Of a DNA stretch of 64,000 bases, positions 5,463 through 58,279 are shown piece after piece. Source of the DNA: Oscillospiraceae bacterium. Its GTDB lineage: Bacteria; Bacillota; Clostridia; Oscillospirales; Oscillospiraceae. A program made the position numbers and the translations under genes. Position 1 is the first letter of the stretch; each line of letters begins with the position of its first letter. The stretch spans positions 62,001 to 126,000 of the forward strand of contig JAGARK010000045.1 in assembly GCA_017622295.1 (NCBI GenBank), given 5' to 3'. The notes under the pieces are model-generated. The model searched no databases, was not told the origin of the DNA, and saw nothing but the letters and a program-made list of their open reading frames with translations.

Positions 5463-5617
5463 AATTACAGTTTATCGGACAGGTGCCCGAAATGCAGAAT
5501 GCAAAATTAAGGAGTTTTCTTCAAATACAGTTTAAATCCTGCGTTTTGCGCACACCATCATGCTGCATTTCGAATTTTGGATTGTGCGGCCTTCGGCAGC
5601 ACGCCAAACTGCAATTT
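5463..5617 (+). repeat. Dispersed inverted-terminus repeat, copy A
   Basis: The left end is AATTACAGTTTATCG and the right end is GCCAAACTGCAATTT. The core carries the ATGCAGAATGCAAAATT ... GGAGTTTTCTTCAAA ... GCACACCATCATGCTGCAT type sequence, and a GTGCGGCCTTCGGCAGCAC hairpin lies near the right end. Related copies with the same core lie at 15.8, 33.7, 45.0 and 58.2 kb. Confidence 0.75.
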
Positions 5618-5629
5618 GCGCTCCATTTC

Positions 5630-5658
5630 TTGCCATCATGTTCTGATTATGCTATGAT
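5630..5658 (+). promoter_or_regulatory. Sigma-A promoter of the GNAT gene
   Basis: TTGCCA, a 17-base spacer and TATGAT lie about 110 bases before the start codon and begin just after repeat copy A. Confidence 0.5.
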
Positions 5659-5767
5659 AAATAAACGGGCACTGCCCGAATTCGAAAACTGGAGAATGCT
5701 GTTTGAAGAACAACACCTTGGAGATTGTGATCTGATCCGAAAAAACAAAATTTTCAGGAGGATCACA

Positions 5768-6388
5768 ATGAAAAAACTTATCATCCGCACAGAGACCTCT
5801 GACGATTACGCCATCGTCGAAAACCTGACCCGTGAGGCATTCTGGAATGTCTACCGCCCCGGCTGCGTGGAGCACTATGTGCTGCACTGCTTGCGGAGTC
5901 TGCCGGAGTTTATTCCGCAGCTGAGCCTGGTGGCAGAAGCAGAGGGCCTCATTCTGGGACACATCATGTACAGCCGGGCCAGCATCACCTGTGATGACGG
6001 CAGCTGCCTTCCCATCGTCATCTTCGGTCCCCTGTCCGTTGCGCCCGAGCATCAGCGCCGGGGCATCGGCAGCGCACTGGTGCGCCATTCCCTGGCGCTG
6101 GCGAAGTCACTGGGCTGCGGCGCGGTGGCCATCACCGGAAGCAGCGCCTACTACGGCCGTTTCGGCTTCATCCCTTCTCAAAGCAAGGGCATCTTCTACG
6201 ACGGACTTCCCCGCAGCGAGCCCACACCATTTTTCATGGTGAAGGAGCTGACGGTGGGGTATCTTGCTGGCGTCACCGGCACCTATGCCGATCCGCCGGG
6301 ATACTTTGTCCGTGACGAGGATGTGGACGCCTTCGACGCCCGTTTCCCGCTCAAAGAAAAGCTGAAGCTTCCCGGTCAGCTGGCATAA
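5768..6388 (+). CDS. GNAT family N-acetyltransferase
   Basis: This 206-residue protein belongs to the GCN5-related acetyltransferases, which move the acetyl group of acetyl-CoA to an amine. The core acetyl-CoA binding motif is visible as VAPEHQRRGIGSALVRHSL (the Q/RxxGxG/A pattern) near residues 90-108, followed by the ITGSSAYYGRFGF segment typical of motif B. The start is the ATG after AGGAGGATCACA. Longer readings upstream run into repeat sequence and are unlikely to be translated. The gene stands alone between its own promoter and terminator. The substrate cannot be assigned. The layout fits the YhbS-like group of small-molecule acetyltransferases. Confidence 0.88.
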   Translation: MKKLIIRTETSDDYAIVENLTREAFWNVYRPGCVEHYVLHCLRSLPEFIPQLSLVAEAEGLILGHIMYSRASITCDDGSCLPIVIFGPLSVAPEHQRRGIGSALVRHSLALAKSLGCGAVAITGSSAYYGRFGFIPSQSKGIFYDGLPRSEPTPFFMVKELTVGYLAGVTGTYADPPGYFVRDEDVDAFDARFPLKEKLKLPGQLA

Positions 6389-6400
6389 CCCAATGGCGGA

Positions 6401-6432
6401 GCACCCCCGGAGAAAATCCGGGGGTGCTTTTC
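6401..6432 (+). terminator. Intrinsic terminator after the GNAT gene
   Basis: GCACCCCCGG and CCGGGGGTGC form the stem, followed by TTTTC. Confidence 0.85.
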
Positions 6433-6448
6433 TGCCGCAGGCGCAATA

Positions 6449-6477
6449 TTGACACCGGGTGAACGGGCTGGTATAAT
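6449..6477 (+). promoter_or_regulatory. Consensus sigma-A promoter upstream of the PTS IIC leader
   Basis: TTGACA and TATAAT are exact consensus hexamers separated by 17 bases. The predicted transcript would start near 6484, leaving a leader of about 210 bases before the PTS IIC gene. Confidence 0.88.
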
Positions 6478-6483
6478 ATTTTC

Positions 6484-6694
6484 ATTGTTTCCGGTTCGTG
6501 AAGATCGGACCAAGGACCACGCCGTCCAGAGGCTGGGCAGGCGCGGTCCGGCACTGAAGACAGCTGAGAGTCTTACGCGGCACGACAGTTCCCCCGCACC
6601 GCCGCCATGAGCTCCCCGAGCTGCCTAGGGTCAGCAGAGGCTGACGTTTCTTTCTTCCATGAGCTGTCATACTTATGGAAAGGTGAAACAAAAA
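6484..6694 (+). promoter_or_regulatory. Structured 5' leader, candidate riboswitch or attenuator (class unknown)
   Basis: The leader between the consensus promoter and the IIC start codon contains no gene but can fold into several stems. A long hairpin spans 6514-6549 (GGACC.CGCC against GGCG.GGTCC, enclosing CCAG/CTGG). AAGAC/GTCTT lies at 6557-6574. GTCAGC-AGAG-GCTGAC lies at 6630-6645, followed by GTTTCTTTC. TTCCAT (6655-6660) can pair with ATGGAA (6674-6679) directly next to the ribosome site AAAGGTG. The last pairing could hide the ribosome site. I do not recognise the fold as a known riboswitch class. Confidence 0.45.
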
Positions 6695-7807: not shown

Positions 7808-7818
7808 GAAAAAAGAAT

Positions 7819-7842
7819 TGGGCGGCCAGTTATGGCCGCCCA
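7819..7842 (+). terminator. GC-rich hairpin after the PTS IIC gene
   Basis: TTGGGCGGCCA and TGGCCGCCCAA form an 11-base-pair stem with a GTTA loop just past the stop codon. The U tract is poor, so termination may be partial. Confidence 0.6.
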
Positions 7843-7984: not shown

Positions 7985-7990
7985 ATATCT

Positions 7991-15795: not shown

Positions 15796-15926
15796 TACAA
15801 TGCAAATTTCAAAATGCAAAATGCAGAATTATGGTGTGCACAGAGCGTACCATTCAAATTCTTTTCAAAAAACTCCTCATTTTTGCATTTTGCATTCAGC
15901 ATTCTGCATTTCGGGCACCTGCCCGA
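15796..15926 (-). repeat. Dispersed repeat, copy B (reverse orientation, ends incomplete)
   Basis: Read on the minus strand it matches copy A: ATCGGGCAGGTGCCCGAAATGCAG, AATGCAAAAT..GAGGAGTTTT, GCACACCATAATTCTGCAT. The TIR sequence itself is missing at the outer end. CGGGCA/TGCCCG forms a small hairpin. Confidence 0.65.
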
Positions 15927-26371: not shown

Positions 26372-26434
26372 GCAGAATGTAAAATTGAATTTTGCATTCT
26401 GCGGCCTTCGGCAGCACGCCAAACTGCAATTTGA
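26372..26434 (+). repeat. Dispersed repeat, copy C (right half only)
   Basis: TGCATTCTGCGGCCTTCGG followed by CAGCACGCCAAACTGCAATTTGAA matches the right end of copy A almost base for base. The left terminus is missing. Confidence 0.7.
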
Positions 26435-28056: not shown

Positions 28057-28062
28057 AAGAGG

Positions 28063-28155
28063 AATTGCAGTTTATCGTTCTGTTATGCACTGCACCTATG
28101 CCTTCCCCCGGGGGAAGCCCAGGGCCCTCCCGCGCCAGTTCGATAAACTGCAATT
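28063..28155 (+). repeat. Dispersed repeat, copy D (perfect 15-base termini)
   Basis: AATTGCAGTTTATCG at the left and CGATAAACTGCAATT at the right are exact inverse complements. The 63-base core is different from copy A and contains CTTCCCCCGGGGGAAG, shared with copy G. Confidence 0.85.
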
Positions 28156-28183
28156 TGAAATCCGCTGCAATTACATACATGAT
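28155..28183 (+). promoter_or_regulatory. Weak promoter candidate before eutG
   Basis: TTGAAA, 17 bases and CATGAT. The -35 hexamer would be formed by the outer end of repeat copy D. This is the best match between the repeat and the gene, but the -10 is poor. Confidence 0.25.
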
Positions 28184-28229: not shown

Positions 28230-29312
28230 GTGGATGAATTTGTATGCACAACGAAAATTATTTCTGGTCCCGGAGCAGTGGAAAAGCTGGCGGATTTCGG
28301 GGCCCGGCGGGTATTTCTGGTGACGGACCCCTTCTTTTTCAAAAACGGCACTGCTGCCCGGGTGGCGGCAGCAGCGAAGGCAGAGCAGATAGAGATCTTT
28401 CACGACGTAAAGCCAGACCCATCGGTGGAGCTGGCGGCTGAGGGCACAGCGAAGCTGCGCTCCTTCGGTCCGGATCTGATCGTGGCCCTGGGGGGTGGCA
28501 GCGCCATGGACTGCGCCAAGGCCATGGCTTTTTTCTCGAAGGGGAATGCAAAACTGATAGCCATCCCCACCACCTCCGGCTCCGGATCGGAAGTGACAGA
28601 TTTTGCCATTCTGACCCACAACAAGGTCAAGCATCCCCTGGTAGACAGGCGGCTGCGGCCCGACGCGGCGATCCTGGACAGCGATTTGCTGGAAGAGCTT
28701 CCCCCCAGCCTTGTAGCGGATGCGGGATTTGATGTGCTGGCCCACGCGGTGGAGGCCTATGTTGCCACCGGGGCCGGAGTCTTCACCGACGCCCTTGCCC
28801 GGGAGGCCTTCGGACGGGCCTACGGTGCCCTGCCCGCCTCCTTCGCCGGACGCAAAGAGGTGCGGCTGACCGTCCATCAGGCGGCGACTATGGCAGGAAT
28901 GGCCTTCACCCAGGCGGGACTGGGGCTGTGCCACGCCATGGCCCACGCTCTGGGCGGGCTGTTCCACATCCCCCACGGGCGGCTGAACGCCATTCTGCTT
29001 CCCAGTGTAGTGGCCTGCAATGCCCATGTAGCCGGGAAAAAATATGGAGATCTTGCCCGAAGCGCCGGAATGGGCGGCAGCGCGGATACCATCGCCGTTC
29101 GGAATCTGAAAAATAATCTGATCCGGCTGCGCCGGGAACTGAAGCTGCCGGAGACCCTGGCCCAGGCGGGGGTGGCGCCCAGCGCCGTGTGGAGTGCCGC
29201 CGGTGAGATCGTGGCTGCAACCCTTGCCGATCCCTGCTGCAAGACGAACCCCATGGCAGTGGAGGATTTTCTGGTGAGGCGGATTCTGGAGGAGGTCACC
29301 GGCCGTGTCTGA
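28230..29312 (+). CDS. eutG: Iron-containing alcohol dehydrogenase, EutG type
   Basis: This 360-residue member of the group III (iron-dependent) alcohol dehydrogenases reduces acetaldehyde to ethanol with NADH, recycling cofactor inside the ethanolamine compartment. NAD-binding glycine run ALGGGSAMDCAKA, PTTSGSGSEVTDFAIL and the metal-ligand segments DVLAHAVEAY and HAMAHALGGLFHIPHG are all present. The start is taken as GTG, three bases before an in-frame ATG, with GGCGGTG upstream; either codon gives nearly the same protein. It overlaps eutA by eight bases, so the assignment to the Eut pathway rests on context. Confidence 0.9.
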   Translation: MDEFVCTTKIISGPGAVEKLADFGARRVFLVTDPFFFKNGTAARVAAAAKAEQIEIFHDVKPDPSVELAAEGTAKLRSFGPDLIVALGGGSAMDCAKAMAFFSKGNAKLIAIPTTSGSGSEVTDFAILTHNKVKHPLVDRRLRPDAAILDSDLLEELPPSLVADAGFDVLAHAVEAYVATGAGVFTDALAREAFGRAYGALPASFAGRKEVRLTVHQAATMAGMAFTQAGLGLCHAMAHALGGLFHIPHGRLNAILLPSVVACNAHVAGKKYGDLARSAGMGGSADTIAVRNLKNNLIRLRRELKLPETLAQAGVAPSAVWSAAGEIVAATLADPCCKTNPMAVEDFLVRRILEEVTGRV

Positions 29313-30624
29313 AACCCTCATCAGCGTGGGACTGGACGTGGGGACCACCTCCACCCAGATGATTTTATCGGAACTGGTGATCGAAAACCGCGCCGGAAGC
29401 TTCGCGGTACCGGAGCTGGAAATTGAAAGCCGGAGAATCCTGTACAAAAGCCCCGTGCATTTCACGCCGCTGCTGCAGGACGAATTGGTAGATGGCGACG
29501 CACTGCGAAGGATCGTAGATGCGGAATATGCAGCGGCGGGCATTCCCAAGAAGGACGTGGGCACCGGCGCCATCATCATCACCGGGGAGACCTCCCGGAA
29601 GGAGAATGCCCGGGCCGTACTGCATGCCCTGTCGGACTTTGCCGGGGACTTTGTGGTGGCCACAGCAGGGCCGGATCTGGAAAGTGTGCTGGCAGCGAAG
29701 GGCGCCGGGGCAGTGGAGCATTCCGCGAAAACCGGGAAAACGGTGCTCCACATGGATATCGGCGGTGGAACAAGCAATCTGGCGCTGATCGAAGACGGAA
29801 AAATCACAGCCACGAGCTGCCTGAACATCGGCGGGCGGCTGCTGAAAATCGCCCCCGACGGCCGGCTGACCTATGTCTCGCCGGTTCTGGATAGATTATT
29901 TTCTAAGCAAGTCGGAGATTATGTAAACCAGAGAGGAGTTCTGGAACTGGCCCGAACGCTGGTGCAGGCACTGGAAATGGCCGCAGGACTGCGGGAGGGG
30001 GCGGAATTACTCCACAAGCTGGTGACCAGGGAAGCCGGATCTTTGGAAGCGCCGTCCAATGTGGTACTTTCCTTCTCCGGAGGGGTGGCGGACTGCATCG
30101 AAACACAGCAGCCCTGGCTGGCCTTCGGGGATTTGGGACCGGAGCTGGGTCTGGCCATCCGGGAGAGCAGACTCTGTCAGGGCGAGTATATTCTGGGCCA
30201 GGAGACCATCCGGGCCACGGTCATCGGTGCCGGGTGTCACAGCGCACAGCTGTCCGGCAGCACCGTATTCCACCAGAATGTGGATTTCCCCCTAAAAAAT
30301 CTGCCGGTGGTGGAATCGGTGGATGCTTTGACGCGGCTGGATGGGCCGGGGGTGCTGGTAGTGCCGGGAGAGGCTATGGATTTTGCCGGAATCCGGGATC
30401 TGGCAAAAAACTTAACGGCCTCGATAAAGGCACCGGTATATGTGGCGACATCCGGGGATATGGCCAAGGCCCTGGGCCAGGCCCTTGCCCTGAGGCTGGG
30501 AACGGACGTGAAAATCCTCTGCATCGACCGGGTTCGGCTGAAAGAGGGGGACTATCTGGATGTGGGCGCCCCCATAGGCCCCGCCCTGCCGGTGGTTGTG
30601 AAGACGCTTATTTTTAACCGCTAA
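29305..30624 (+). CDS. eutA: Ethanolamine ammonia-lyase reactivating factor EutA
   Basis: EutA is a 439-residue actin-fold ATPase that exchanges damaged cobalamin in ethanolamine ammonia-lyase for fresh cofactor. Visible signs are the N-terminal phosphate loop GLDVGTTSTQMIL, the central MDIGGGTSNLALIEDGKI (second phosphate loop), FSGGVADCIE, and VIGAGCHSAQLSGSTVF. The start is a GTG within the end of eutG. The stop codon TAA forms the first bases of repeat copy E. Confidence 0.94.
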   Translation: MSETLISVGLDVGTTSTQMILSELVIENRAGSFAVPELEIESRRILYKSPVHFTPLLQDELVDGDALRRIVDAEYAAAGIPKKDVGTGAIIITGETSRKENARAVLHALSDFAGDFVVATAGPDLESVLAAKGAGAVEHSAKTGKTVLHMDIGGGTSNLALIEDGKITATSCLNIGGRLLKIAPDGRLTYVSPVLDRLFSKQVGDYVNQRGVLELARTLVQALEMAAGLREGAELLHKLVTREAGSLEAPSNVVLSFSGGVADCIETQQPWLAFGDLGPELGLAIRESRLCQGEYILGQETIRATVIGAGCHSAQLSGSTVFHQNVDFPLKNLPVVESVDALTRLDGPGVLVVPGEAMDFAGIRDLAKNLTASIKAPVYVATSGDMAKALGQALALRLGTDVKILCIDRVRLKEGDYLDVGAPIGPALPVVVKTLIFNR

Positions 30625-30778
30625 ATTACAGTTCATCGTTCTGTCCGCACCTTCACATGGCTCTCCCAGAGGGAGAGCTGGCACGCCGTAGGCGTGACTG
30701 AGAGGGCCCTCTCCGCCCCTTCGGGGCACCTCTCCCATAGGGAGAGGCGAGGTTACGCTGTGCGATAACCTGTAATTT
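30623..30778 (+). repeat. Dispersed repeat, copy E (between eutA and eutB)
   Basis: Left end AAATTACAGTTCATCG, right end CGATAACCTGTAATTT. The core has hairpins such as GGCTCTCCC-AGA-GGGAGAGCT and GGCACGCC-GTA-GGCGTG, unlike the other copies. The first bases overlap the eutA stop codon. Confidence 0.85.
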
Positions 30779-30794
30779 GAAGAAGGGAGACCAT

Positions 30795-32159: not shown

Positions 32160-32171
32160 GGGAGTGACGGG

Positions 32172-33080
32172 ATGAACAAAGAAGAATTAACCGCCATGGT
32201 GGCGGAGATTTTACAGGGAATGGGCCGGGAGCCGGCGGTGAAGGGTTCCGATTACCGCAATACCGCCCCGGAACCCACAAAGAAAGACTGCGGCTACACC
32301 GACGGGGACTTCGTTCCGGATGTGACGACGTTGGATCTTCGCAAGCTCTATCTGACGGAAAACGCCGCAGATGCCGAGCGATTCAAGAAAATGAAACTGA
32401 AAACTCCCGCCCGCCTGGGCTGCGGCAAGGCGGGACCCCGGTATAAGACCCTGACCATGCTCCGCTTCCGGGCGGATCACGCGGCGGCTCAGGACGCGGT
32501 CTTTTCGGAAGTAGACACGGAGTTTGCCAAGGAAAACGACCTGCTGCCCACCAAGACCCGCTGTGACAGCAAGGATGAATACCTGACCCGGCCCGACCTG
32601 GGCCGCTGCTTCGATGAGCACAACGCCAAGGCCATCGCCGGTGTCATTGACCACCCTCCCAAGGTGCAGTTGGTGGTGGGCGACGGGCTTTCCTCCGCCG
32701 CAATCACCGCCAACGCCATGGACTGCCTGGCCGCCATCCGGGACGGTCTGAAGCTCAGAGGCACCGAGACTGGCAAGGCCATTTTCGTCAAGTACTGCCG
32801 CGTGGGCGCTGGGGACGCCATCGGAGACATCACCGGCTGCGAGCTGGTGTGTATGCTGGTGGGTGAGCGGCCCGGACTGGTGACGGACAAGAGCATGTCC
32901 GCCTATATCACCTACAAGCCCCGCACCGGGGTTCTGGAATCCAGCCGGACGGTGGTCAGCAACATCCACGCCCAGGGTACCCCCGCCGTGGAAGCCGGGG
33001 CTTATATCGCCGAGCTGATCGACACGATTCTCAAGCGAAAGGTATCCGGCGTGGGGCTTCATCTGGAGGCCACGTCATGA
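32172..33080 (+). CDS. eutC: Ethanolamine ammonia-lyase small subunit EutC
   Basis: EutC (302 residues) completes the cobalamin-binding site of ethanolamine ammonia-lyase. Family segments are TPARLGCGKAGPRYKTLTMLRFRADHAAAQDAV, DEYLTRPDLGRCF, VQLVVGDGLSSAAI and VCMLVGERPGLVTDKSMSAYITYKP. An N-terminal extension of about 60 residues carries a helix (EELTAMVAEILQGM) like the compartment-targeting peptides at the N termini of lumen enzymes (inference). The gene overlaps eutL by four bases (ATGA). Confidence 0.96.
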   Translation: MNKEELTAMVAEILQGMGREPAVKGSDYRNTAPEPTKKDCGYTDGDFVPDVTTLDLRKLYLTENAADAERFKKMKLKTPARLGCGKAGPRYKTLTMLRFRADHAAAQDAVFSEVDTEFAKENDLLPTKTRCDSKDEYLTRPDLGRCFDEHNAKAIAGVIDHPPKVQLVVGDGLSSAAITANAMDCLAAIRDGLKLRGTETGKAIFVKYCRVGAGDAIGDITGCELVCMLVGERPGLVTDKSMSAYITYKPRTGVLESSRTVVSNIHAQGTPAVEAGAYIAELIDTILKRKVSGVGLHLEATS

Positions 33081-33700
33081 TCCCTGTAAAAATTCTGGCG
33101 GTGCGGTATCTGGCCAACGCCGCCCCGGGCCTGGCTCAGAGCCTGGGAGCGCCCAAGGGCTACCCTTCCCTGGGGCTGCTGACCACTGACAGCGACGACG
33201 CCACCTATATTGCCCTGGATGAGGCCACCAAGGCGGCGGATGTGAAGGTCTGCTACGGCCGCAGCTTCTACGCCGGAGCTGCCAATGCCTCCACTCCCAA
33301 CGCTGGGGAAGTCATCGGCGTCCTGGCAGGCCCTACCCCTGGGGCGGTGCGAAGCGGCATGGAGGCGGCGATCGGGGCCCTGGAACGGGTGGGCTTCGAT
33401 GAGGTGTGCGGAGTACCTTATCTTGCCCACACGGTCAGCAGCGTCGGCTCCTTCCTCGCGAAGGAAGCAGGCGTCCGGGAGGGGACGGCTCTGGCCTATC
33501 TGATTGCGCCGCCCCTGGAGAGCCTGTACGCAATGGACGCGGCTTTGAAAGCCTCGGACGTAAAGTTATGTAAACTATACGCACCCCCCAGCGAGACAAA
33601 TTTCGGCGGGGGCCTGCTCAGCGGCACCCAGTCGGCCTGTGACGCAGCCTGCGCCGCCTTTGCTGAGGCGGTGGCCGATGTAGCCAGGATGCCGAGATAA
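33077..33700 (+). CDS. eutL: Microcompartment shell protein EutL (BMC-T)
   Basis: EutL (207 residues) is a tandem-BMC-domain trimer that tiles the ethanolamine compartment shell and is thought to carry a gated pore. The repeated BMC pattern is visible as YPSLGLLTTDSDDATYIALDEATKAADVKVCYGRSFYAG in the first half and GTALAYLIAPPLESLYAMDAALKASDVKLCKLYAPPSETNFGGG in the second. The ETNFGG loop is typical of EutL. It is coupled to eutC by a four-base overlap, and repeat copy F follows the stop codon. Confidence 0.96.
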   Translation: MIPVKILAVRYLANAAPGLAQSLGAPKGYPSLGLLTTDSDDATYIALDEATKAADVKVCYGRSFYAGAANASTPNAGEVIGVLAGPTPGAVRSGMEAAIGALERVGFDEVCGVPYLAHTVSSVGSFLAKEAGVREGTALAYLIAPPLESLYAMDAALKASDVKLCKLYAPPSETNFGGGLLSGTQSACDAACAAFAEAVADVARMPR

Positions 33701-33821
33701 ATGCAAAATCGAGGAGTTTCTTCCGGAGATAATTGAAATCGTGCGCTTCGTGCACACCAAAATTATGCATTCTGCATTTTGAATTTTGCATCGTGCTGCC
33801 ATCGGCAGCACGCCAAACTGA
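33701..33821 (+). repeat. Dispersed repeat, copy F (between eutL and eutE)
   Basis: The core is of the copy A type (ATGCAAAATCGAGGAGTTTC, GTGCACACCAAAATTATGCA). The right end has the CGTGCTGCC-ATC-GGCAGCACG hairpin and a truncated terminus CCAAACTGA. The left terminus is not recognisable. Confidence 0.7.
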
Positions 33822-33834
33822 AAGGAGAGATGGT

Positions 33835-35256
33835 ATGGAACTGGACAAGGATTTGGCAGCCCGGCAGGAGGCGCGGCTTCTTTGTCGACAGGCGGAAACC
33901 GCCCAGCGGATTCTAGCCGATATGAGCCAGCAGCAGCTGGACAGGATCGTGGAGGCGGTGGCCAAGGCCTTCTCCGCCGCTGCCGTGGAGCTGGCGGAAC
34001 TGGCCGCCGCGGAAACCGGCTTCGGCAATCCCGAGGACAAGACCACAAAAAACCGCTTTGCCTCCGATCGGGTGGCTTCCGCCATCCGGGGAATGAAGAC
34101 CGTGGGGGTATTAAATGAGGATCCCCGGGAAAAGCTATGGCAGATCGGTGTGCCGGTGGGGGTCATTGCCGCCATCGTGCCCAGCACCAATCCCACCTCC
34201 ACAATTTGCTATAAGGCCTTGATCGCATTGAAATCCGGCAACTCCATTGTTTTTTCGCCCCATCCCAAGGCCGTCAGCTGCACCCTCCGGGCAGCAAGAA
34301 TCGTGGCCGCCGCCGCCGAAAAAGCCGGCGCACCCGCCGGGAGCGTGGGCTGTCTGAGCCTTGCCTCCATGGCAGGCTGTCAGGAGCTGATGGCAGCGAA
34401 GGAAGTCAAGCTGATTCTGGCCACCGGAGGCCCAGCCATGGTAAAAGCAGCCTACTCCTCCGGCAAACCCGCCATCGGCGTAGGCGCAGGCAATGGGCCT
34501 GCCTATATCCACCACTCGGCGGATGTGAAGCAGGCGCTGGGCTTCATTTTAAAATCCAAGACCTTTGACTACGGCACCGTCTGTGCCTCGGAGCAGAGCA
34601 TCATCGTGGAAAAATCCATGGAACAGAAGGTTCGGGAAGAAGCCAAGGCTCAGGGGTTCTATTTCATGGACACCGCCGAAGCCGGGAAGCTGGCGAAGCT
34701 GCTGTTCAAGCCCAACGGGACGCTGAATCCCGAAATTGTAGGCAAACCCGCAGAAAAACTGGCCCAGATGGCCGGATTTCCGGTGCCCCGGGGGACCAGG
34801 ATTCTGGTGGCCCGGGAACAGGAGGCAGGACCCACCCGGCCCTACTCCATGGAAAAGCTCTGTCCGGTGCTGGCATTCTTTGTCATGGACAGCGAGGACG
34901 CCATTCTGGAAAAGGCCGTGGAGGTGCTGACCCACGAGGGTGCGGGGCATACCTTCGCCATGCACGCCGAGGACCGGGAGGTGATCGCCCGGTTTGCAAA
35001 AGCCATCCCTGTGTCCCGGTTCCTGGTGAACACTCCGGCGGCCCTGGGGGGCATCGGCGCCACCACCAGCCTTTTCCCCGCTCTGACTCTGGGCTGCGGT
35101 GCCGTGGGCGGAAGCTCCTCTTCCAACAACATTTCGCCTCTGGATCTGATCAATATCCGCCGGGTCGCCTGGGGCACGGAGGAAGTACCGCAGCCCCAGG
35201 TGGATGCCCAGCTGGTAGAGCTGCTGGCCGAGAAGATTCTGGAACGCTTGCGGTAA
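33835..35256 (+). CDS. eutE: Acetaldehyde dehydrogenase (CoA-acetylating) EutE
   Basis: EutE (473 residues) oxidises acetaldehyde to acetyl-CoA with NAD. It has the aldehyde dehydrogenase fold: VGVIAAIVPSTNPTSTICYKALIALKSGNSIVFSPHPKA, the cofactor segment LATGGPAMVKAAYSSGKPAIGVGAGNGP and the active-site Cys in FDYGTVCASEQS. An N-terminal segment of about 20 residues (LDKDLAARQEARLLCRQAE) looks like a helical targeting peptide (inference). ATG start after AAAGGAGAGATGGT. Its stop codon overlaps repeat copy G. Confidence 0.95.
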   Translation: MELDKDLAARQEARLLCRQAETAQRILADMSQQQLDRIVEAVAKAFSAAAVELAELAAAETGFGNPEDKTTKNRFASDRVASAIRGMKTVGVLNEDPREKLWQIGVPVGVIAAIVPSTNPTSTICYKALIALKSGNSIVFSPHPKAVSCTLRAARIVAAAAEKAGAPAGSVGCLSLASMAGCQELMAAKEVKLILATGGPAMVKAAYSSGKPAIGVGAGNGPAYIHHSADVKQALGFILKSKTFDYGTVCASEQSIIVEKSMEQKVREEAKAQGFYFMDTAEAGKLAKLLFKPNGTLNPEIVGKPAEKLAQMAGFPVPRGTRILVAREQEAGPTRPYSMEKLCPVLAFFVMDSEDAILEKAVEVLTHEGAGHTFAMHAEDREVIARFAKAIPVSRFLVNTPAALGGIGATTSLFPALTLGCGAVGGSSSSNNISPLDLINIRRVAWGTEEVPQPQVDAQLVELLAEKILERLR

Positions 35257-35590
35257 ATTACAGGTTATCGTTCCGGTTAGCATTTCCCCCTGCCTTCCCC
35301 CGGGGGCGGTGCGTCGCGCAGCGAATCTAATAATTGTGATTGCCGGTGGCAATCACACCTATTCCAATTAGATGGCCGAGCGTAAGCGAGGTCGGATGAG
35401 GAATGGCGTGCACGAAAGTGCGGAGTAGGCCTAAAACAACGCAGAAACTTGTAGTGTTTGCCCGCATTCCTCATCATCTCCGCGCTAAGAGCCGCCCTGC
35501 GGGCGCAGAGTCAAAAATCAAAGGTTTTTGCCAGCTTCCCCCCGGGGGAAGCCCAGGGTGCTCCCGCACCAGTGCGATAACCTGTAATTT
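35255..35590 (+). repeat. Dispersed repeat, copy G (composite, between eutE and eutM)
   Basis: AAATTACAGGTTATCG and CGATAACCTGTAATTT are exact 16-base inverted termini. The core resembles copy D at both ends (CCTTCCCCCGGGGG and CCCCCGGGGGAAGCCCAGGG), with about 230 extra bases inside. Those hold hairpins TGTGATTGCC-GGT-GGCAATCACA and the long-range pair GATGAGGAATG/CATTCCTCATC. I see no gene in this stretch. Confidence 0.85.
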
Positions 35591-35621
35591 GAACCATTAA
35601 TATTTGAAAGGATGAAAAATT

Positions 35622-35930
35622 ATGGACACCAATTCTCTGGGTATGATCGAAACCAAGGGCCTCATCGGGGCCATTGAGGCGGCAGATGCCATGGTCAAAT
35701 CCGCCAATGTACAGCTGGTCGGCAAGGAGCAGGTAGGCGGCGGCCTGGTAACCGTCATGGTTCGGGGCGACGTGGGCGCCGTCAAGGCTGCCACCGACGC
35801 CGGAGCTGCCGCCGCTGAAAAGGTGGGCGAGCTGATTTCCGTCCATGTCATCGCCCGGCCCCATATGGAAGTGGACGCCATCCTGCCCAAGGGCAGAAGC
35901 ACCGGCAATCCCTCCGGCGGCAAGGGCTGA
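35622..35930 (+). CDS. eutM: Microcompartment shell protein EutM (BMC-H)
   Basis: EutM (102 residues) is a single BMC domain forming the hexamers that make up most of the shell. The pattern [60 protein letters not shown] is classic for PduA/EutM. The end [15 protein letters not shown] is also typical. A short Gly/Ser tail follows. It is the only BMC-H gene seen in the locus. The stop overlaps the eutT start (TGATG). Confidence 0.97.
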
Positions 35931-36616
35931 TGCTCTATACCGAAGCCATGGTCCGGGAAAATATCCGCAGCCGGGATGGAAGGCGGGTGTTTTTCCTGGC
36001 CAAAGGGGATACCCTGACCCCCGGGGCACGGGATTACCTGAGCCGGGAGCGGATCGAGATCCGTCCGGGGGAAACGGCCAAGATGGAGGAATTCTGCCTG
36101 CTCAGCGGGGCAGTACTGCGGGAAAAGCCGGAGCAGATGACCCATCTTCAGGGCAATGTTCTGGTAAGCAAGACCCATCCGCGGATCGCCTTTCGAGGTG
36201 CAATGGATTCGCTGGAGGCGGAACTTTTGTTATGTCAACTAAGCACAGGAGAAGCCTTGCGAAAGCAACTGCAGGAGATTCTGAATCTGGCCCGGATGCT
36301 GATCCGCTGTGAGGTGCTGGGTGAACCTGTGCCGGAAGGAAAGCTTTGCGGCCTGACGGAATCTGAGCAGCGCAGCCGCAGCCACCGGCCCCAGGATTAC
36401 TACGGCCAGGTCCATTTTATGCCGAGCTTTACCGATGGGGCAGAGATCCTCTGGCTGAACCGGTGCCGCTGCGCCGCCCGGAATGCGGAACTGGCGGCAG
36501 CGAGGGCCTTTGTGGATGAGGACGGGGCTGTCCAGCGGGAGGATATTTTAAGAGCTCTGAACCGGATGAGCAGCATGATCTATATCCTGATGATTCAAAG
36601 TAAAGCGGGCGGATAG
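35930..36616 (+). CDS. eutT: Corrinoid adenosyltransferase EutT, metal-motif-less type
   Basis: EutT (228 residues) makes adenosylcobalamin for EutBC. Matching segments are REKPEQMTHLQGNVLVSKTHPRIAFRGAMDSLEAELLL and the C-terminal LRALNRMSSMIYILMIQ. The His-X11-Cys-Cys-X2-Cys metal site of the enterobacterial enzyme is absent; the region before KPEQMTHL reads MEEFCLLSGAVLRE with a single Cys. A group of Firmicutes EutT enzymes of this kind is known to work without a metal ion. Translation is coupled to eutM by a one-base overlap, and the TAG stop lies at the edge of repeat copy H. Confidence 0.88.
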   Translation: MLYTEAMVRENIRSRDGRRVFFLAKGDTLTPGARDYLSRERIEIRPGETAKMEEFCLLSGAVLREKPEQMTHLQGNVLVSKTHPRIAFRGAMDSLEAELLLCQLSTGEALRKQLQEILNLARMLIRCEVLGEPVPEGKLCGLTESEQRSRSHRPQDYYGQVHFMPSFTDGAEILWLNRCRCAARNAELAAARAFVDEDGAVQREDILRALNRMSSMIYILMIQSKAGG

Positions 36617-36775
36617 ATTGCAGTTTGTCGCGCCGATTACGAACATCCCTTGTAGGGGCGAGCAGCCGCGCGTAGCGCGGCTCTTGGCCAGTCGCAATTC
36701 GCAACATTGGCGTGCCGGACAGCCAATGACCGCCCCTGCATTGATATTTGCAAACTGCACGGTAAACTACAATTT
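36615..36775 (+). repeat. Dispersed repeat, copy H (between eutT and eutD)
   Basis: Left end AGATTGCAGTTTGTCG, right end CGGTAAACTACAATTT. The core is again different, with TAGGGGCGAGCAGCCGCGCG and a CCGCGCG-TAG-CGCGG stem. The left end touches the eutT stop codon. Confidence 0.8.
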
Positions 36776-36799
36776 AAATGCATGACATGAGGTGAACAG

Positions 36800-37408
36800 A
36801 TGGAAAACGGAAATATGGACACGCTGGTGGAGGCGGTACTGGATAAGCTCTTCGTCCCCCTGGAGGCTTCCGGGCGGCATGTGCACATCACCAAGGAACA
36901 GGCCATCGCCCTCTTCGGCTACGATCTGACGCCGGAGCGCCCCCTTTCTCAGCCGGGACAGTACCTTGCCAAAGAGCGCCTTAGCGTCATCGGTCCCAAG
37001 GGCGAGTTCCGGAATGTGGCCGTTCTGGGCCCGGCCCGCCGGGAGGCTCAGGTGGAGATTTCTTTGTCCGACGGTAGGGTGCTGGGCCTCCAGCCGCCGG
37101 TGCGGCTGTCGGGAGATGTGAAGGATTCCCCCGGCTGTATTCTGGAAGGACCTCTCGGCCGAATCACGCTGGACCGGGGCGTCATCGCGGCCCAGCGGCA
37201 CATCCATCTGACCCCCGAGGACGGAAAACGCTTCGGCGTCACAGACAAGCAGGTGGTACAGCTGCAGACTTTCACAGGCCGTCCGGCCATCTTCCGGGAC
37301 ACGGTGGTGCGCATCAGCCCGGATTTTGCCGCGGCTGTCCATCTGGACTATGACGAGGCCAATGCCTGTGGCTTTGTCCGGGGGGATCTGGGGAGGATCC
37401 TCCCATGA
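36800..37408 (+). CDS. eutD: Phosphotransacylase EutD (PduL type)
   Basis: This 202-residue protein is a PduL-type phosphate acyltransferase that converts acetyl-CoA to acetyl phosphate, regenerating CoA in the compartment. The two zinc-binding His motifs are visible: SGRHVHITKEQAIALFG near residue 24 and AQRHIHLTPEDGKRFGV near residue 132. The family signature LSQPGQYLAKERLSVIGPKGEFRNVAVLGPARREAQVEIS and LSGDVKDSPGC is complete. In Firmicutes eut loci the gene called eutD encodes this type. It overlaps the next gene by four bases. Confidence 0.93.
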   Translation: MENGNMDTLVEAVLDKLFVPLEASGRHVHITKEQAIALFGYDLTPERPLSQPGQYLAKERLSVIGPKGEFRNVAVLGPARREAQVEISLSDGRVLGLQPPVRLSGDVKDSPGCILEGPLGRITLDRGVIAAQRHIHLTPEDGKRFGVTDKQVVQLQTFTGRPAIFRDTVVRISPDFAAAVHLDYDEANACGFVRGDLGRILP

Positions 37409-37803
37409 CCCGGGCCCTTCTGATCGGCCGGGAGCCGGGAAACGCCCTGGGGTACAGCTATGTGACGGAGGCTCCCTATGACGTGGTGGTCATCGGCTCT
37501 CTGACCACGGGCCAGCTGCTGCGGTTTCGGGAGGAAGCTGTGCTGTCCGCTCTGGCGGAGGGGAGGAGCGTGTATCTCTACACCCCCGGGCTGCCGGAAG
37601 CTCCCAAAAACCGGGCGCTGGCAGGTTCCATTGCGGCAGCCCAGCGGGAACTGAAAAGCTGGGGCGTGATCTTCACCGACGGAGCCCGGCGGCATCTGGT
37701 CACCGCGGAGGAGGCCCGGGAACTGTGTCGCAAGGGACAGCTCCCCGGCCCCGGAGCCGTGCTGACGCCTCTGGCAAAGGAAATAATGGAGGGACGGGAA
37801 TGA
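37405..37803 (+). CDS. eut-locus protein of unknown function
   Basis: This 132-residue protein sits between eutD and eutN with four-base overlaps on both sides, so it is made with them. It begins like a Rossmann-type fold (TRALLIGREPG), followed by YDVVVIGSLTTGQLLRF and RSVYLYTPGLPEAP. The second half contains WGVIFTDGARRHLVTAEEARELCRKG. Firmicutes eut operons often carry an uncharacterised protein at this position (TIGR02536 'eut_hyp' is a candidate, from memory). I cannot assign a function. Confidence 0.7.
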   Translation: MTRALLIGREPGNALGYSYVTEAPYDVVVIGSLTTGQLLRFREEAVLSALAEGRSVYLYTPGLPEAPKNRALAGSIAAAQRELKSWGVIFTDGARRHLVTAEEARELCRKGQLPGPGAVLTPLAKEIMEGRE

Positions 37804-38039
37804 AAATCGGAACAGTGATCGGCGCAGTCTGGGCTACCCGGAAGGCGGAGTGTCTGGGCGGACAAACCTTTCTGGTGGTGGACACCGGCCGGGATGATCT
37901 GGTGGCAGCGGACCGGGTCGGGGCCGGCGTGGGGGACAGGGTGCTTCTCGCCACCGGAACGGTCGCATCCCGCTACTGCATGGACGCCCCCATCGACGCC
38001 GCCGTGGTGGCAATTCTGGATGGGAAGCAGGACAGCTGA
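37800..38039 (+). CDS. eutN: Microcompartment vertex protein EutN (BMC-P)
   Basis: EutN (79 residues) is a pentameric CcmL/EutN-type protein that closes the vertices of the shell. The pattern MKIGTVIGAVWATRKAE, FLVVDTGRDDLVAADRVGAGVGDRVLLATGTVAS and PIDAAVVAILD is diagnostic. The ATG overlaps the stop of the preceding gene (ATGA). With EutM and EutL it gives one representative of each shell class. Confidence 0.96.
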   Translation: MKIGTVIGAVWATRKAECLGGQTFLVVDTGRDDLVAADRVGAGVGDRVLLATGTVASRYCMDAPIDAAVVAILDGKQDS

Positions 38040-38073
38040 ATGCCCTGTTGCATCTACATGAAGGAGGTAGCAT

Positions 38074-39150
38074 ATGTCAGCCCATGAGATTTTGATCGCC
38101 GTCATGGCAGCCTTTGCGGCGCTGGGCGCTCTGGACCGGATCTTCGGCAACCGGCTGGGCCTGGGAAAGGAATTTGAGGAAGGAATTCTTGCCATGGGCT
38201 CCTTGGCGATAGCCATGGTGGGCGTCATCACTCTGGCGCCGGTGCTGGCGGCGATACTGAAGCCTGTGGTGGTGCCGGTGTTCCGCTTTCTGGGAGCGGA
38301 CCCGGCCATGTTTGCCGGCTCCATCCTGGCCTGCGACATGGGCGGCGGCGCACTGGCCATGGAAATGACCGCCGACACCGACGCAGCCTTACTCGGCGGC
38401 GTCATCACCGGCTCCATGCTGGGCGCCACCATCGTCTTCACCATTCCCGTGGCCATGGGCATCCTCAGCGAAGAGGACCGGCCCGCTATGGCCCGGGGGA
38501 TTCTGTGCGGTATCGTGACCATTCCCCTGGGTGTGTTTGCGGGCGGGCTGGTCGCAGGCTTTTCAGTCTCCATGCTGCTGCCGAACATTCTGCCCATCGT
38601 GCTCATCGCGGCGCTGATCGCCCTGGGGCTGTGGAAGGCGGAGGATGCCATGATTCGGGGCTTCGCGGCCTTCGGCAAGGGCGTGGTGGCGGTGATCACC
38701 GTGGGGCTGGCGGCAGCGATCGTGGAGGAATTGACCGGCTTTACGGTGATCCCCGGCATGGCCCCCATTGCCGAGGGTTTCCAGACTGTAGGGGCCATTG
38801 CCATCGTGCTGGCGGGTGCCTTCCCGCTGGTGCTGGTGCTGACAAAGCTGCTGCGCAAACCTCTGACCCGTCTGGGGAAACTGATCGGCATCAACGAAAC
38901 CGCCGCAGCGGGACTGGTAGCCAGCCTCGCCAACTCCATCGCTACCTTCGGCCTGGTCAAAGACATGGACAAGCGGGGCAAGGTGGTCAACATCGCCTTT
39001 TCTGTATCTGCAGCCTTCGTCTTCGGCGATCATCTGGGCTTCACCGCAGGCTTTGCCCCGGAAATGCTGCCGGCCATGATCCTGGGCAAGCTGGTGGGCG
39101 GCATCAGCGCCGTGCTGGTGGCCCTGTGGCTGACCAGAAAAGAAGGATAA
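38074..39150 (+). CDS. eutH: Ethanolamine transporter EutH
   Basis: EutH (358 residues, about ten membrane helices) facilitates ethanolamine entry at low external concentration. Family features are ALGALDRIFGNRLGLGKEFEEGILAMGSLAIAMVG, ILACDMGGGALAMEMT and SVSAAFVFGDHLGFTAGFAPEMLPAMILGKLVGG. ATG start after GAAGGAGGTAGCAT, 34 bases beyond eutN. It is the last eut gene. Its TAA stop is part of repeat copy I, and the metG promoter follows 50 bases later. Confidence 0.95.
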   Translation: MSAHEILIAVMAAFAALGALDRIFGNRLGLGKEFEEGILAMGSLAIAMVGVITLAPVLAAILKPVVVPVFRFLGADPAMFAGSILACDMGGGALAMEMTADTDAALLGGVITGSMLGATIVFTIPVAMGILSEEDRPAMARGILCGIVTIPLGVFAGGLVAGFSVSMLLPNILPIVLIAALIALGLWKAEDAMIRGFAAFGKGVVAVITVGLAAAIVEELTGFTVIPGMAPIAEGFQTVGAIAIVLAGAFPLVLVLTKLLRKPLTRLGKLIGINETAAAGLVASLANSIATFGLVKDMDKRGKVVNIAFSVSAAFVFGDHLGFTAGFAPEMLPAMILGKLVGGISAVLVALWLTRKEG

Positions 39151-39190
39151 ATTGCAGTTCATCGATAATCAGCGCTATAAACTGAAATTT
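39149..39190 (+). repeat. Dispersed repeat, copy I (minimal, 42 bases)
   Basis: AAATTGCAGTTCATCG and ATAAACTGAAATTT enclose only 12 bases, so the element is reduced to its two termini. The eutH stop codon overlaps the left end. Confidence 0.75.
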
Positions 39191-39239: not shown

Positions 39240-39599
39240 TATACGGAATAAAAGCTGTGAAGAGAAGAGTAGGCAGGCGAAGCCTTTCAGAGAGCCCTTG
39301 TTTGGTGCGAAAGGGCAGGTCGGGAACTGCTGAACATGGTCTCGGAGCCGGAGCGTCGATACTTAGGCGTTCCCGGGTGCGCCCGTTAAAGCGCCCAGAG
39401 TCGTCTTTAGTCTTCAATCCCCCAATGGGGCCCCCCGCAAAGGCGGATGGCCTTTGTGGAGAAGAGGAGATGCCAAGCCACTGGCGGAATTCCTGCTTGC
39501 AGGAAATGGAGCGGTGTGGCTTGTGCGTTGACGAGAAACAAGGTGGTACCGCGTAAATTTTACGCCCTTGAGTTTTTCTCAAGGGCGTTTTTCATTTTT
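39240..39599 (+). promoter_or_regulatory. T-box leader (methionine) of metG
   Basis: The conserved T-box sequence AAGGTGGTACCGCG lies at 39540-39553, followed by the terminator stem ACGCCCTTGAG/CTCAAGGGCGT with TTTTTC. In Stem I the specifier position reads ATG (39336-39338) followed by a purine, matching methionine. Uncharged tRNA-Met would favour the antiterminator and readthrough into metG. Confidence 0.93.
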
Positions 39600-42352: not shown

Positions 42353-42368
42353 AAATTGCAGCTTATCC
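42353..42368 (-). repeat. Dispersed repeat, single terminus (copy J)
   Basis: On the minus strand GGATAAGCTGCAATTT matches one terminus of the repeat family. No second terminus is found nearby. The TAA inside it is the rsmA stop codon. Confidence 0.6.
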
Positions 42369-45023: not shown

Positions 45024-45044
45024 CTTCCCCGCAATCAGGGGAAA

Positions 45045-45157
45045 TGTAAAATTCAAAATGCAAAATGCAAAATGAAGGTGTGCCTGCGGCGCGAATTCAA
45101 TTCATCCGCGAAGCGGATGCCTCAATTCTGCATTCCGCATTCTGCATTCTGCATTCC
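45045..45157 (+). repeat. Dispersed repeat, copy L (between the thrS T-box and its ribosome site)
   Basis: TTCAAAATGCAAAATGC ... GGTGTGC ... and tandem ATTCTGCATT words match the copy A core read on either strand. TTCATCCGC-GAA-GCGGATG forms a hairpin. The canonical termini are absent. Confidence 0.6.
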
Positions 45158-55760: not shown

Positions 55761-55769
55761 TCACTACAT

Positions 55770-55808
55770 AAGAATCCCGCGTGTCCTGCGACACGCGGGA
55801 TTCTTTTA
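55770..55808. terminator. Bidirectional terminator between LRR protein 2 and GH36
   Basis: AAGAATCCCGCGTGT and ACACGCGGGATTCTT with a six-base loop and T tracts on both strands. Confidence 0.9.
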
Positions 55809-58052
55809 TTCTTCTTCGATCACATACAGATTGGAGCCATAATCTCCCTGGGTGCGCTGGTTTTTGTCGTATCCGGTGCCCCGGAACAGGGGCAGCAGGG
55901 TGATGCCGGACATCAGGGCAGCGCCCGTCACATGATAGAGCTCCACGCCGTCCTCCAGCCCCAGGTGCTTATCCGCCGTCCGAATCACAGAGCCGTTGGG
56001 ATTCAGGTCCACCGGCGCAACATGCTTCAGGAGCCCTGCGAACTGGCCCACCCGGATTTTCTGGGGCCGGGTACGGAAGAGATAGCGCTTGCTCTTGTCA
56101 AGGCCCTTCAGCCGCAGCTGCTCGTAGCCGGGTGCAGCGTCCATCCGGCCATGGAAAACCCCGGCGATGACCGTGGTATCTTTGGAGACCTGCCAGCCGT
56201 TTTTCAGCCGGCGGAAACCGCCGAACTGGAACACGGCGCGGTACTTTTTGTACAGCTCGATCTGAGCCTTGATCTCCTGAATCTCAATACTCACCAGATG
56301 CTTCAGATCCAGCTCATAGCCCAGGCAGCCGAAGAAGGCCACATTGCCCCGGGTGGTCAGGGGCGTATTGCGCAGGGTCTGGGCATGGGGCGCGGCAGAA
56401 ACATGGGCGCCGAAGGTGGACTGGGGATACAGATAGCTCAGATTGCCCTGAATGGTCAGCCGCTGGATGGGGTCTGTATTGTCCGAGCACCAGACCTGGG
56501 GGCCAAAGCAGAGCATACCCAGATCGAACCGATTGCCGCCGGAGGAACAGCTTTCCAGCAGGACATGGGGCCGGGGTTCAAAAATCCGCCGCAGCACGTC
56601 ATACAGGCCCAGAATGCACTCATGCGCTTTCACACCCAAGGCCACACTGTGCCGGTTCATGTCCCATTTCACATAGGAAATATTGGCACTGTCCAGGATC
56701 CGCGTCACATTTTCCACAATGTAGTCCCTTACTTCCAGTTTTGTCAGATCCAGCAGTAGCTGATTGCGGCCGGTGATGTCCGAGAAGCCATCGTTGTGAA
56801 GCACCCAGTCGGGATGAGTCCGGTAGAGGTCCGAATCCTCATTGACGGACTCCGGCTCAAACCAGAGGCCGAAATCCAGGCCCAGCTTGCCCAGCCGGGC
56901 GGACAGCCCCTCCAGGCCCTCAGGAAGCTTTTTCCTGTTCACATTGTAATCGCCCAAGCCCGCTCTGTCATTGTCCCGGGCGCCGAACCAGCCGTCGTCC
57001 AGCACAAAGAGCTCGCAGCCCAGGTCCCTGGCCCGCTTGGCCAGATCCAGCAGCTTGCGCTGGTTAAAATCGAACATGCAGCCCTCCCAGCTGTTGTAGA
57101 GCACGGGCCGCTCCTTTTCCCGCCAGTATTCGGGGATGATGCGGTCCAGCACAAACCGGTGCATCCGGGCGGACAGGCCGCCGAAGCCCTCATCGCTGCA
57201 GCACAGCACCGCCTCCGGGGTCTCGAATTTCTCCCCGGGGGCAAGGTTTTTGGTGAAATTGGCTGGGCTGATGCCCTGCATCACCCGGGTCAGACCCTGC
57301 AGACTCCGCTGGGCGGAAGCATAGTGATTGCCGGAATAGATCAGATTGAAACCGTAGACCCGGCCATGATCCTCACCCGCGTCGGGCTCGCTCAGCAGGA
57401 ATCCCGGATTGTGCCGGTTGGAGGAAGCGCCGGTGGTGCTCTCATTGACCACCCGTGCAGGGCCCACCGGGGTAGTATGCTTGCCCATTTCGGCGATCCA
57501 GCCGCCGTCGAAGGTGGTCATAACGTACTCGCCCGGCAGGTCCAGACAGAAGCTCATCAGCTTGTGCAGCTCCAGCGAGGCCTCTCCCTCATTGACCAGC
57601 ACCGCCCGGCGGGTCAGGGCCGTGTCGAAGAGGGTAAAATACAGATACAGCTTCACGCCCTTCTGTGCCATGGTGATCTCTAACGTCTCGCCGCCCCGGG
57701 CCATGGGCAGACCGGATTCCATCACCGGCTGCTGTTCCAGCACCCGGTGGTTTACATAACTAAGATCTCCAGACTTGGAATCGAACTCCACGGGGCTCTC
57801 CCGGAAGTCGCCTCTGCCGCTGCCGCTCCAGGCCAGGGCCATGGCATCCGGGCAGCTGGCGGTATCCGCCGGGTTCAGCAGCAGACTTTCGCCCCAGCCC
57901 AGTCCCGGGTTGCAGGAGAGCGCTTTGACGTCCTCGCTGTCCACGGGAGCTCCGAAGTGGATCTGCTCCAGCAGGCCGTAGCGATTGACCCGCAGCAGGC
58001 AGGAAAGGTTTTCATTTTTCAGATGAAATAATCCATTGTTGCATTCGATCAT
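55806..58052 (-). CDS. Alpha-galactosidase, glycoside hydrolase family 36
   Basis: This 748-residue cytosolic enzyme removes alpha-1,6-galactose from raffinose-type sugars. The N-terminal beta-supersandwich domain runs to about residue 330. The catalytic barrel shows YNSWEGCMFDFN, ELFVLDDGWFGARDNDRAGLGDY, the nucleophile Asp464 in YVKWDMNR and the acid/base Asp510 in SSGGNRFDLGML, all classical for GH36. A C-terminal beta domain ends the protein. The ATG eight bases after AAAGGGG was chosen over a GTG three codons earlier. Single gene with its own consensus promoter, next to GH13 and the sugar importer. Confidence 0.96.
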   Translation of the reverse strand: MIECNNGLFHLKNENLSCLLRVNRYGLLEQIHFGAPVDSEDVKALSCNPGLGWGESLLLNPADTASCPDAMALAWSGSGRGDFRESPVEFDSKSGDLSYVNHRVLEQQPVMESGLPMARGGETLEITMAQKGVKLYLYFTLFDTALTRRAVLVNEGEASLELHKLMSFCLDLPGEYVMTTFDGGWIAEMGKHTTPVGPARVVNESTTGASSNRHNPGFLLSEPDAGEDHGRVYGFNLIYSGNHYASAQRSLQGLTRVMQGISPANFTKNLAPGEKFETPEAVLCCSDEGFGGLSARMHRFVLDRIIPEYWREKERPVLYNSWEGCMFDFNQRKLLDLAKRARDLGCELFVLDDGWFGARDNDRAGLGDYNVNRKKLPEGLEGLSARLGKLGLDFGLWFEPESVNEDSDLYRTHPDWVLHNDGFSDITGRNQLLLDLTKLEVRDYIVENVTRILDSANISYVKWDMNRHSVALGVKAHECILGLYDVLRRIFEPRPHVLLESCSSGGNRFDLGMLCFGPQVWCSDNTDPIQRLTIQGNLSYLYPQSTFGAHVSAAPHAQTLRNTPLTTRGNVAFFGCLGYELDLKHLVSIEIQEIKAQIELYKKYRAVFQFGGFRRLKNGWQVSKDTTVIAGVFHGRMDAAPGYEQLRLKGLDKSKRYLFRTRPQKIRVGQFAGLLKHVAPVDLNPNGSVIRTADKHLGLEDGVELYHVTGAALMSGITLLPLFRGTGYDKNQRTQGDYGSNLYVIEEE

Positions 58053-58072
58053 ATGTAACACCCCTTTTTAAT

Positions 58073-58101
58073 ATTGTATCCGGGGATTTTTTGCGTGTCA
58101 A
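58073..58101 (-). promoter_or_regulatory. Sigma-A promoter of the GH36 gene
   Basis: TTGACA, 17 bases and TACAAT on the minus strand, about 20 bases before the start codon. Confidence 0.8.
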
Positions 58102-58159
58102 TGAGATTTTTCGTGACGAAACCAGCCGGGCGTGGTAGAATGGGTGGTAAGAAGATAAC

Positions 58160-58279
58160 AATTGCAGTTTAGCGCGCAGATGCGCGAAATGAGGAGTTTT
58201 CTTCAAAACAATTTAAATTGTGCATTCTGCATTTTGAATTATGCATTGTGCTGCGACGGCGCACGTGAAACTGCAATTT
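58160..58279 (+). repeat. Dispersed repeat, copy M (upstream of the GH13 gene)
   Basis: Left end CAATTGCAGTTTAGCG, right end GTGAAACTGCAATTTG. The core is of the copy A type (GCGAAATGAGGAGTTTTCTT, ATTCTGCATTTTGAATTATGC), with TGTGCTGCGACGGCGCAC near the right end. Confidence 0.8.

Follow-up and report, generated by a model that had tools for sequence, protein, structure and literature searches.

When a family of intergenic repeats keeps its ends and exchanges its interior, which part is the unit that moves, and what decides where that unit lands? We consider these questions for a 64,000-nucleotide stretch of DNA (the window) from an Oscillospiraceae bacterium (assembly GCA_017622295.1, contig JAGARK010000045.1, positions 62,001 to 126,000), together with the whole 1.99-Mb draft genome that contains it (G000). 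The units have a simple architecture, AAATTNNNGTTTRTCG…inverse complement, that is, inverted ends around a variable core. The explanation that we regard as probable, with real room for doubt, is a miniature transposon that inserts one-sidedly after a three-base word (TTC in this genome), makes no target duplication, and carries other palindromic repeats inside it. What carries this reading is the unit boundaries, the amplification of the unit in a relative, a neighboring TTC or GGT, the lack of a visible duplication, the positions at stop codons, and the independence of the cores. Bacteria commonly contain short palindromic repeats, but the movement unit and the target choice of these repeats are rarely visible; here, both can be read from exact ends, a neighboring word that depends on species, a polarity that several species show, and a simple rule of harmless landing at stop codons.

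A family defined by its ends

How abundant is the terminus? At up to 3 mismatches, the 16-base sequence AAATTGCAGTTTATCG matches the window 16 times, against a mean of 0.21 in 100 dinucleotide shuffles, none of which reaches 16. At up to 2 mismatches, it matches G000 125 times (54 forward and 71 reverse), and the reversed pattern matches 0 times. We took the window plus 44 stretches around the 100 matches, of the 125, that were listed and required two facing ends no more than 420 bases apart, each with at most 4 and jointly at most 6 mismatches. This yielded 58 complete units, in which conserved 16-mers in inverted orientation enclose a variable spacer, plus 17 single ends. The units measure 38 to 339 bp (median, 116 bp); among them are nearly empty hairpins of 38 to 55 bp. 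A preliminary description of the window had proposed a dispersed family with shared inverted termini, and the excess over shuffles in the window and the genome-wide count at two mismatches, far above its reversed control, bear this out. Its 12 copies resolve into seven complete units, one half unit, one lone end, and three copies of a core. A search of one open-access library found no paper on this terminus family.

What moves?

One indication comes from a related genome, G087, in which five complete 177-bp copies are 97.7 to 98.9% identical and their 30-bp flanks are 10 to 43% alike. Near-identical copies in unrelated surroundings imply that the unit moves as one piece. Its distribution is patchy: exact AAATTNNNGTTTRTCG occurs at least once in 79 of the 136 genomes of the genus and in at least 14 copies in 14 of them (maximum, 234), with a reversed control of at most 1 per strand, and in the family's other genera (390 genomes), 31 to 97 copies are found in 4 genomes. 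Likeness that stops at the terminus and uneven expansion between species together support the view that the outer unit itself behaves as a mobile element. The commonest triplet at the NNN positions is also species dependent, being GCA in G000, ACA and GGA in G059, GTA in G087 and G089, CCA in G072, GTT in G135, and CCC with TCC or GCC in G063 and G071. Among the matches listed, named records with the pattern include many metagenome-assembled genomes (MAGs) of Oscillospiraceae and Clostridia from ruminant and rabbit guts, along with scattered single occurrences in unrelated bacteria.

Some observations on the arrangement of ends stand apart from this argument. At two G059 loci (L172, 1144-1540, and L170, 4979-5282), the end of a unit is extended head to tail by one or two further pieces of ~102 bp, each closed by the same terminus, and the IMG/VR contigs L157 and L162 show a 97- to 99-bp spacing that resembles these pieces. 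The same two contigs (L157, 1026-4423; L162, 1-3397) share 99.9% identity as far as a unit's right end and differ wholly beyond it, as if a rearrangement breakpoint lay there. Another Clostridia MAG has the family's 37- to 42-bp hairpins on both sides of a different palindromic repeat (L073, 1301-1605; L081, 1938-2156). Finally, many genomes of the genus and the family contain one or two copies of AAATTCAAGTTTRTCG, which may be a conserved coding sequence with no relation to the units.

Where does the unit land?

TTC stands directly outside 49 of the 116 ends of the complete G000 units; background positions 3 to 57 bases away average 2.3, with 7 as the highest value. By unit, TTC is found at one end in 35 of the 58, at both ends in 7, and at neither in 16, and with one mismatch allowed, at least one end has it in 54. 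The word is not the same everywhere. In G135 (30 loci from 120 matches), it is GGT at 14 of 40 ends, against a background mean of 0.5, with TTC at 0 ends, and 0 of 10 complete pairs have GGT at both. Could the word instead be part of the unit, as TTCAAATT? We rejected this possibility: copies of G087 that share a core have TTC at either core end, and G135 has GGT. The G059, G087, and G089 loci and L176 and L177 were chosen with a TTC-containing pattern, and their TTC rates are inflated. The preliminary description had also raised target duplications. A scan of 2 to 10 bp at several boundary offsets over the 58 units gave no sustained signal, and its single z of 5.1 is one two-base match; no duplication was seen, with the reservation that a copy of AATT would be hidden.

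Is there any rule beyond the word? Thirteen of the 58 units begin at the second base of a stop codon of open reading frames (ORFs) of 228 to 521 codons, and the next commonest offset has 4. For four window units, joining the flanks across the unit yields a stop codon: CGC-TGA at 30623, CGG-TGA at 35255, GGA-TAA at 36615, and GGA-TGA at 39149. In relatives without the unit, the orthologous EutA, aldehyde dehydrogenase, and EutH proteins terminate at nearly the same position, to within a few residues, and one of these loci (L205) has another repeat there. We posit that a unit landing just past the T of a TGA(A) stop would restore TAA, since its own first bases are AA, and would leave the gene at its original length; selection may then retain such insertions. 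The fit to stop codons is not independent of the target model, because GAA is common on the far side.

Do the two ends match?

According to the preliminary description, paired changes in the two ends keep the stem intact. Across the 58 complete units of G000, the two ends agree at 13.34 of 16 positions, compared with 13.17 for shuffled partners, a value reached by 87 of 2,000 shuffles, so end covariation is not significant. A different pattern appears in seven other genomes (G057, G063, G071, G072, G398, G466, and G521), where 40 loci gave 29 pairs; these loci were chosen regardless of TTC, and TTC-picked loci were excluded. A base other than G stands at position 6 in 16 of 17 TTC ends and in 16 of 41 other ends (p = 1e-4; the counts 16/1/16/25 were tallied by hand). 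This polarity is apparent in five of the seven genomes, the single G398 pair being without it. With G059 and L177 added and NTC counted, the table for eight pooled genomes becomes 35/5 versus 15/35 (p = 4e-8). The TTC ends and the other ends thus have different triplets, which puts a mismatch in the stem between them. Taken together, the pooled polarity and the mismatched ends indicate that compensatory changes are not a feature of the family, and this part of the preliminary description does not hold.

Might the hairpin nonetheless be selected as RNA? On this account, the unit would control stability or coupling between the genes of an operon and would have spread by recombination rather than transposition. 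Five complete units do lie in an ethanolamine operon region of the window, and three copies fold well (28062, z = -5.1; 30623, trimmed to 148 nt, z = -4.5; 58159, z = -2.9). On the other side, the segment 5470-5617 folds weakly (z = -1.1), the 42-bp copy no better than shuffles (z = 0.16), the end covariation is not significant, the cores are unrelated, and most of the orthologous junctions compared in relatives are without a unit, G087 having its own type at one. We consider a selected mRNA hairpin highly improbable.

What do the units carry?

The cores were said to be of unrelated kinds, and several unrelated types are indeed present. Assigned by regular expressions, and hence roughly, the 58 G000 cores comprise 19 CTTCCCC hairpins, 13 hairpins that resemble GTAG-type repetitive extragenic palindromic (REP) sequences, 11 AT-rich cores (GCATTCTGCATT/GGAGTTTTC), 2 CGTC-like cores (GTCATTNCGAG), 2 other CTCCC hairpins, 6 two-motif mixtures, 4 short or absent cores, and 1 unclassified core. 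The CTTCCCC and GTAG-like cores come in one- and two-hairpin sizes (95 and ~300 bp in G000; 99 and 177 bp in G087).

These cores are independent repeats that also exist without this terminus. The CTTCCCCCGGGGGAAG core (at most 1 mismatch) occurs in 68 of the 136 genomes of the genus; in G047, with 0 exact termini, hairpin pairs are freestanding; and in G089, CGTC-like cores occur both with and without the terminus. The region 5' of a gene with an EF-Tu domain (Pfam), which we take to be typA, makes the same point, based on the 15 of 30 fetched loci that were used (the other 15, with no anchor match, were dropped). Here, G000, G087, and G059 have units with differing cores; in G089, a CTTCCCC core is accompanied by at least a right end; and in G076 and G117, the cores are CGTC-like and have no terminus. 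Beside these, freestanding CTTCCCC hairpin pairs in G047 (L222) and G018 (L230) start exactly at an apparent TAA stop codon.

What kind of repeats are they? Under a GTAG hairpin criterion, GGGTCATGACC hairpins flank the gene on both sides in 8 of 30 loci of genes resembling the REP-associated tyrosine transposase (RAYT); GGGTCATGACC is part of the GTAGGGCGGGGTCATGACCCCGCC repeat, and GTAGGGCGGGGTCATGACCCCGCC serves as a core in G135. These two facts together identify some cores as REP or REPIN repeats (REPINs being inverted REP pairs) in the published sense (PMC3116915; PMC3733652). The few TGTCATTGCGAG...CTCGCAATGACA cores may be CGTC REPs, which are defined by a CGTC/TGTC tag, a stem that starts with AT pairs, and a CC(A) tail; by eye, the tag and the AT start of these cores agree with this. 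We speculate that REP-type repeats inserted centrally into the unit and have since been carried along with it.

If the cores are independent, could the 38- to 42-bp hairpin be a passive target, into which REP-type repeats insert and within which only the inner repeats move? Cores do occur without the terminus, nearly empty hairpins of 38 to 55 bp exist, and there is a published parallel, since PMC3733652 describes, in A. variabilis, T. roseum, and H. neapolitanus, palindromes that enclose REP dimers. What decides against a passive target, already disfavored, is that likeness among the G087 copies is bounded by the outer ends, with unrelated flanks, so that the composite itself has been copied to new sites; we would give this alternative only a small chance. 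The preliminary description had offered two possibilities, a transposon family that captures cargo and a short module that other repeats enter, and both find support: the outer unit appears to be mobile itself, and the cores are repeats in their own right.

Which enzyme moves it?

We propose that the two ends fold in single-stranded DNA and would be cut and joined in trans by an HUH-type tyrosine transposase. The mover is probably a single-strand enzyme of this kind; none was found in the genes examined. The RAYT model NF047646 (E ≤ 0.001) matches in 81 of the 136 genus genomes, with 6 over the cutoff; the proteins score near the NCBIfam cutoff, and a few matches are ordinary IS200-type genes or fragments. 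Among the RAYT-like loci, L325 has a unit ~0.8 kb downstream, and L319 and L320 have a lone end. The Y1 family PF01797 matches in 14 of 24 genomes, including G000 and G087, and 20 loci of other Y1 gene kinds scanned for the ends gave only two lone matches. Nor did an autonomous parent appear among six long end pairs of 1.1 to 2.5 kb (L091, L108, L161, L162, L166, and L175): by Pfam, their ten ORFs include no transposase and encode a transporter, a GAF protein, a phosphoesterase, an HAD hydrolase, an alanine racemase, a deacetylase, and BioY, with three having no family. A transposase with the same ends, proposed as a check on the family, was thus absent from the 20 Y1 loci, the 30 RAYT-like loci, and the six long pairs. 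Absence of an enzyme is weak evidence here, because the genomes are incomplete drafts, and draft genomes often lack copies of insertion sequences (ISs).

Several findings weigh against a duplication-free, one-sided element moved by such an enzyme. GGT as a landing word is based on the single genome G135. The one-sidedness in G000 is only mild, given that independent ends would yield 28, 10, and 19 units with TTC at one, both, and neither end; TTC at both ends is above chance in G000 (7 of 58), and in G087 and G089 second ends have TTC in 4 of 15 cases by hand count (p = 7e-5 versus 1/64). An AATT duplication would stay invisible, because the ends themselves carry AATT, and orthologous empty sites did not help, as the nearest relatives, ~83 to 89% identical in genes, are too distant for base-level alignment. 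The G000 ends show no polarity (p = 0.45), two G072 pairs are without it, and units of one genome share triplets, so that the polarity counts are not independent and the p values overstate the evidence. As for RAYT as the mobilizer, NF047646 has no match in G000, G059 (95% complete), G110, or G135 (92%), four of the 14 high-copy genomes have no match to it, high-copy genomes are not enriched for it (10 of 14 versus 71 of 122; p = 0.40), and 0 of the 30 fetched RAYT-like genes are bracketed by these ends. PF01797, in a search that excluded G135, is absent from G059 and G089, and in G000 it finds one ordinary IS200-type gene only.

Is the unit, then, a conventional miniature inverted-repeat transposable element mobilized by a DDE transposase? 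A 4-bp AATT duplication could hide in the AAATT ends, and the word would reflect an outer TTC...GAA preference (palindrome TTCAAATTTGAA). Terminal inverted repeats are present, the AATT at the two ends has the same orientation and would be taken for part of them, and TTC occurs at both ends above chance. Set against this are TTC that is mostly one-ended (35 one, 7 both, of 58), GGT never at both ends of the complete G135 pairs, polar ends in the pooled data from seven genomes, no transposase by Pfam within the long pairs, and, with the AATT reservation, no duplication seen. We regard a DDE element as unlikely, if still deserving a place in the discussion.

Returning to the single-strand miniature transposon, how does it compare with known systems? 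With REPINs and GTAG REPs and their RAYTs (PMC3116915; PMC3733652), the units share inverted 16-mers with a variable middle, an extragenic position, hairpins, and ends that supply stop codons. Excised or end-joined forms have been reported for REPINs (PMC3116915). In contrast to the GTAG tag beside a self-complementary REP of 20 to 40 nt, the outer 16-mer has no GTAG tag, is not self-palindromic but pairs with the other end, and has TTC or GGT as its neighbor, and RAYT-like genes are neither bracketed by it nor detected in all high-copy genomes. The nested REP dimers likewise place a REP-type repeat within another palindrome; in PMC3733652, that palindrome is described as an insertion context, with hundreds of free copies as well in T. 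roseum. The present unit, unlike these, is amplified as a unit, its cores belong to several unrelated types, and it has a neighboring word of its own.

The palindrome-associated transposable elements (PATEs) of IS200/IS605 (PMC7290912) are also composed only of ends, make no target duplication, and insert 3' of a fixed short word, but no parental IS was found for the present unit. Each IS200/IS605 end forms its own hairpin and there are no inverted terminal repeats, whereas here the two ends pair together; the IS200/IS605 word has 4 to 5 nt at one end, whereas here it is a three-base TTC or GGT, mostly one-sided. TIRtrons, the families of terminal inverted repeats (TIRs) of TIR-associated tyrosine transposases, share with the units such repeats and, in PMC3733652, are linked to a tyrosine transposase in place of GTAG REPs; the Y1 and RAYT-like loci scanned hold no tyrosine transposase gene with the present ends.

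Do the units perhaps represent a class of their own? As a rather doubtful conjecture, we suggest a class of single-strand mini-transposons in which the ends would fold together, a built-in mismatch would set the polarity, and the NNN triplet would pick the landing word (TTC or GGT), with retargeting as species diverge and REP passengers swapped. Within the genus, species that show the expansion and species that do not form a natural series in which to hunt for the enzyme.

Copies in the window

Complete units are found at seven places. Unit A (5462-5617; 156 bp) has an AT-rich core of the GCAGAATGCAAAATTAAGGAGTTTTC type and directly follows a terminator-like hairpin. Unit D (28062-28156; 95 bp) has a CTTCCCCCGGGGGAAG core and a 16-bp outer stem. 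Unit E (30623-30778; 156 bp) lies between eutA and eutB, its first AA completing the eutA stop TAA. Unit G (35255-35590; 336 bp) has a two-hairpin CTTCCCC core and begins at the stop codon that closes the acetaldehyde dehydrogenase ORF; unit H (36615-36775; 161 bp), with the GTAG-REP-like core GTAGGGGC, begins at a TAG stop codon. Unit I (39149-39190) begins at the EutH stop codon and, as the preliminary description recognized, consists of almost nothing but termini in its 42 bp. Unit L (58159-58279; 121 bp) has an AT-rich core and lies upstream of an alpha-amylase ORF.

The remaining copies are partial. A half unit at 26374-26432 (first placed at 26372) retains a core remnant and the right end only, and a lone end, AAATTGCAGCTTATCC, lies at 42353-42368 on the forward strand with TTC immediately before it. 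AT-rich core copies at 15796-15912 and 45043-45157 have no termini at 3 mismatches, and a core copy at 33701-33823 has a degenerate right end, no left end, and no terminus at 3 mismatches.

Units stand between many genes of the ethanolamine utilization region (28230-39150), which encodes Fe-ADH, EutA, EutB, EutC, a bacterial microcompartment (BMC) protein, acetaldehyde dehydrogenase, cobalamin adenosyltransferase, PTAC, and EutH. Immediately downstream of the 42-bp unit at 39149, the window also contains a T-box leader (RF00230, 115 bits) at 39248-39572 on the forward strand.

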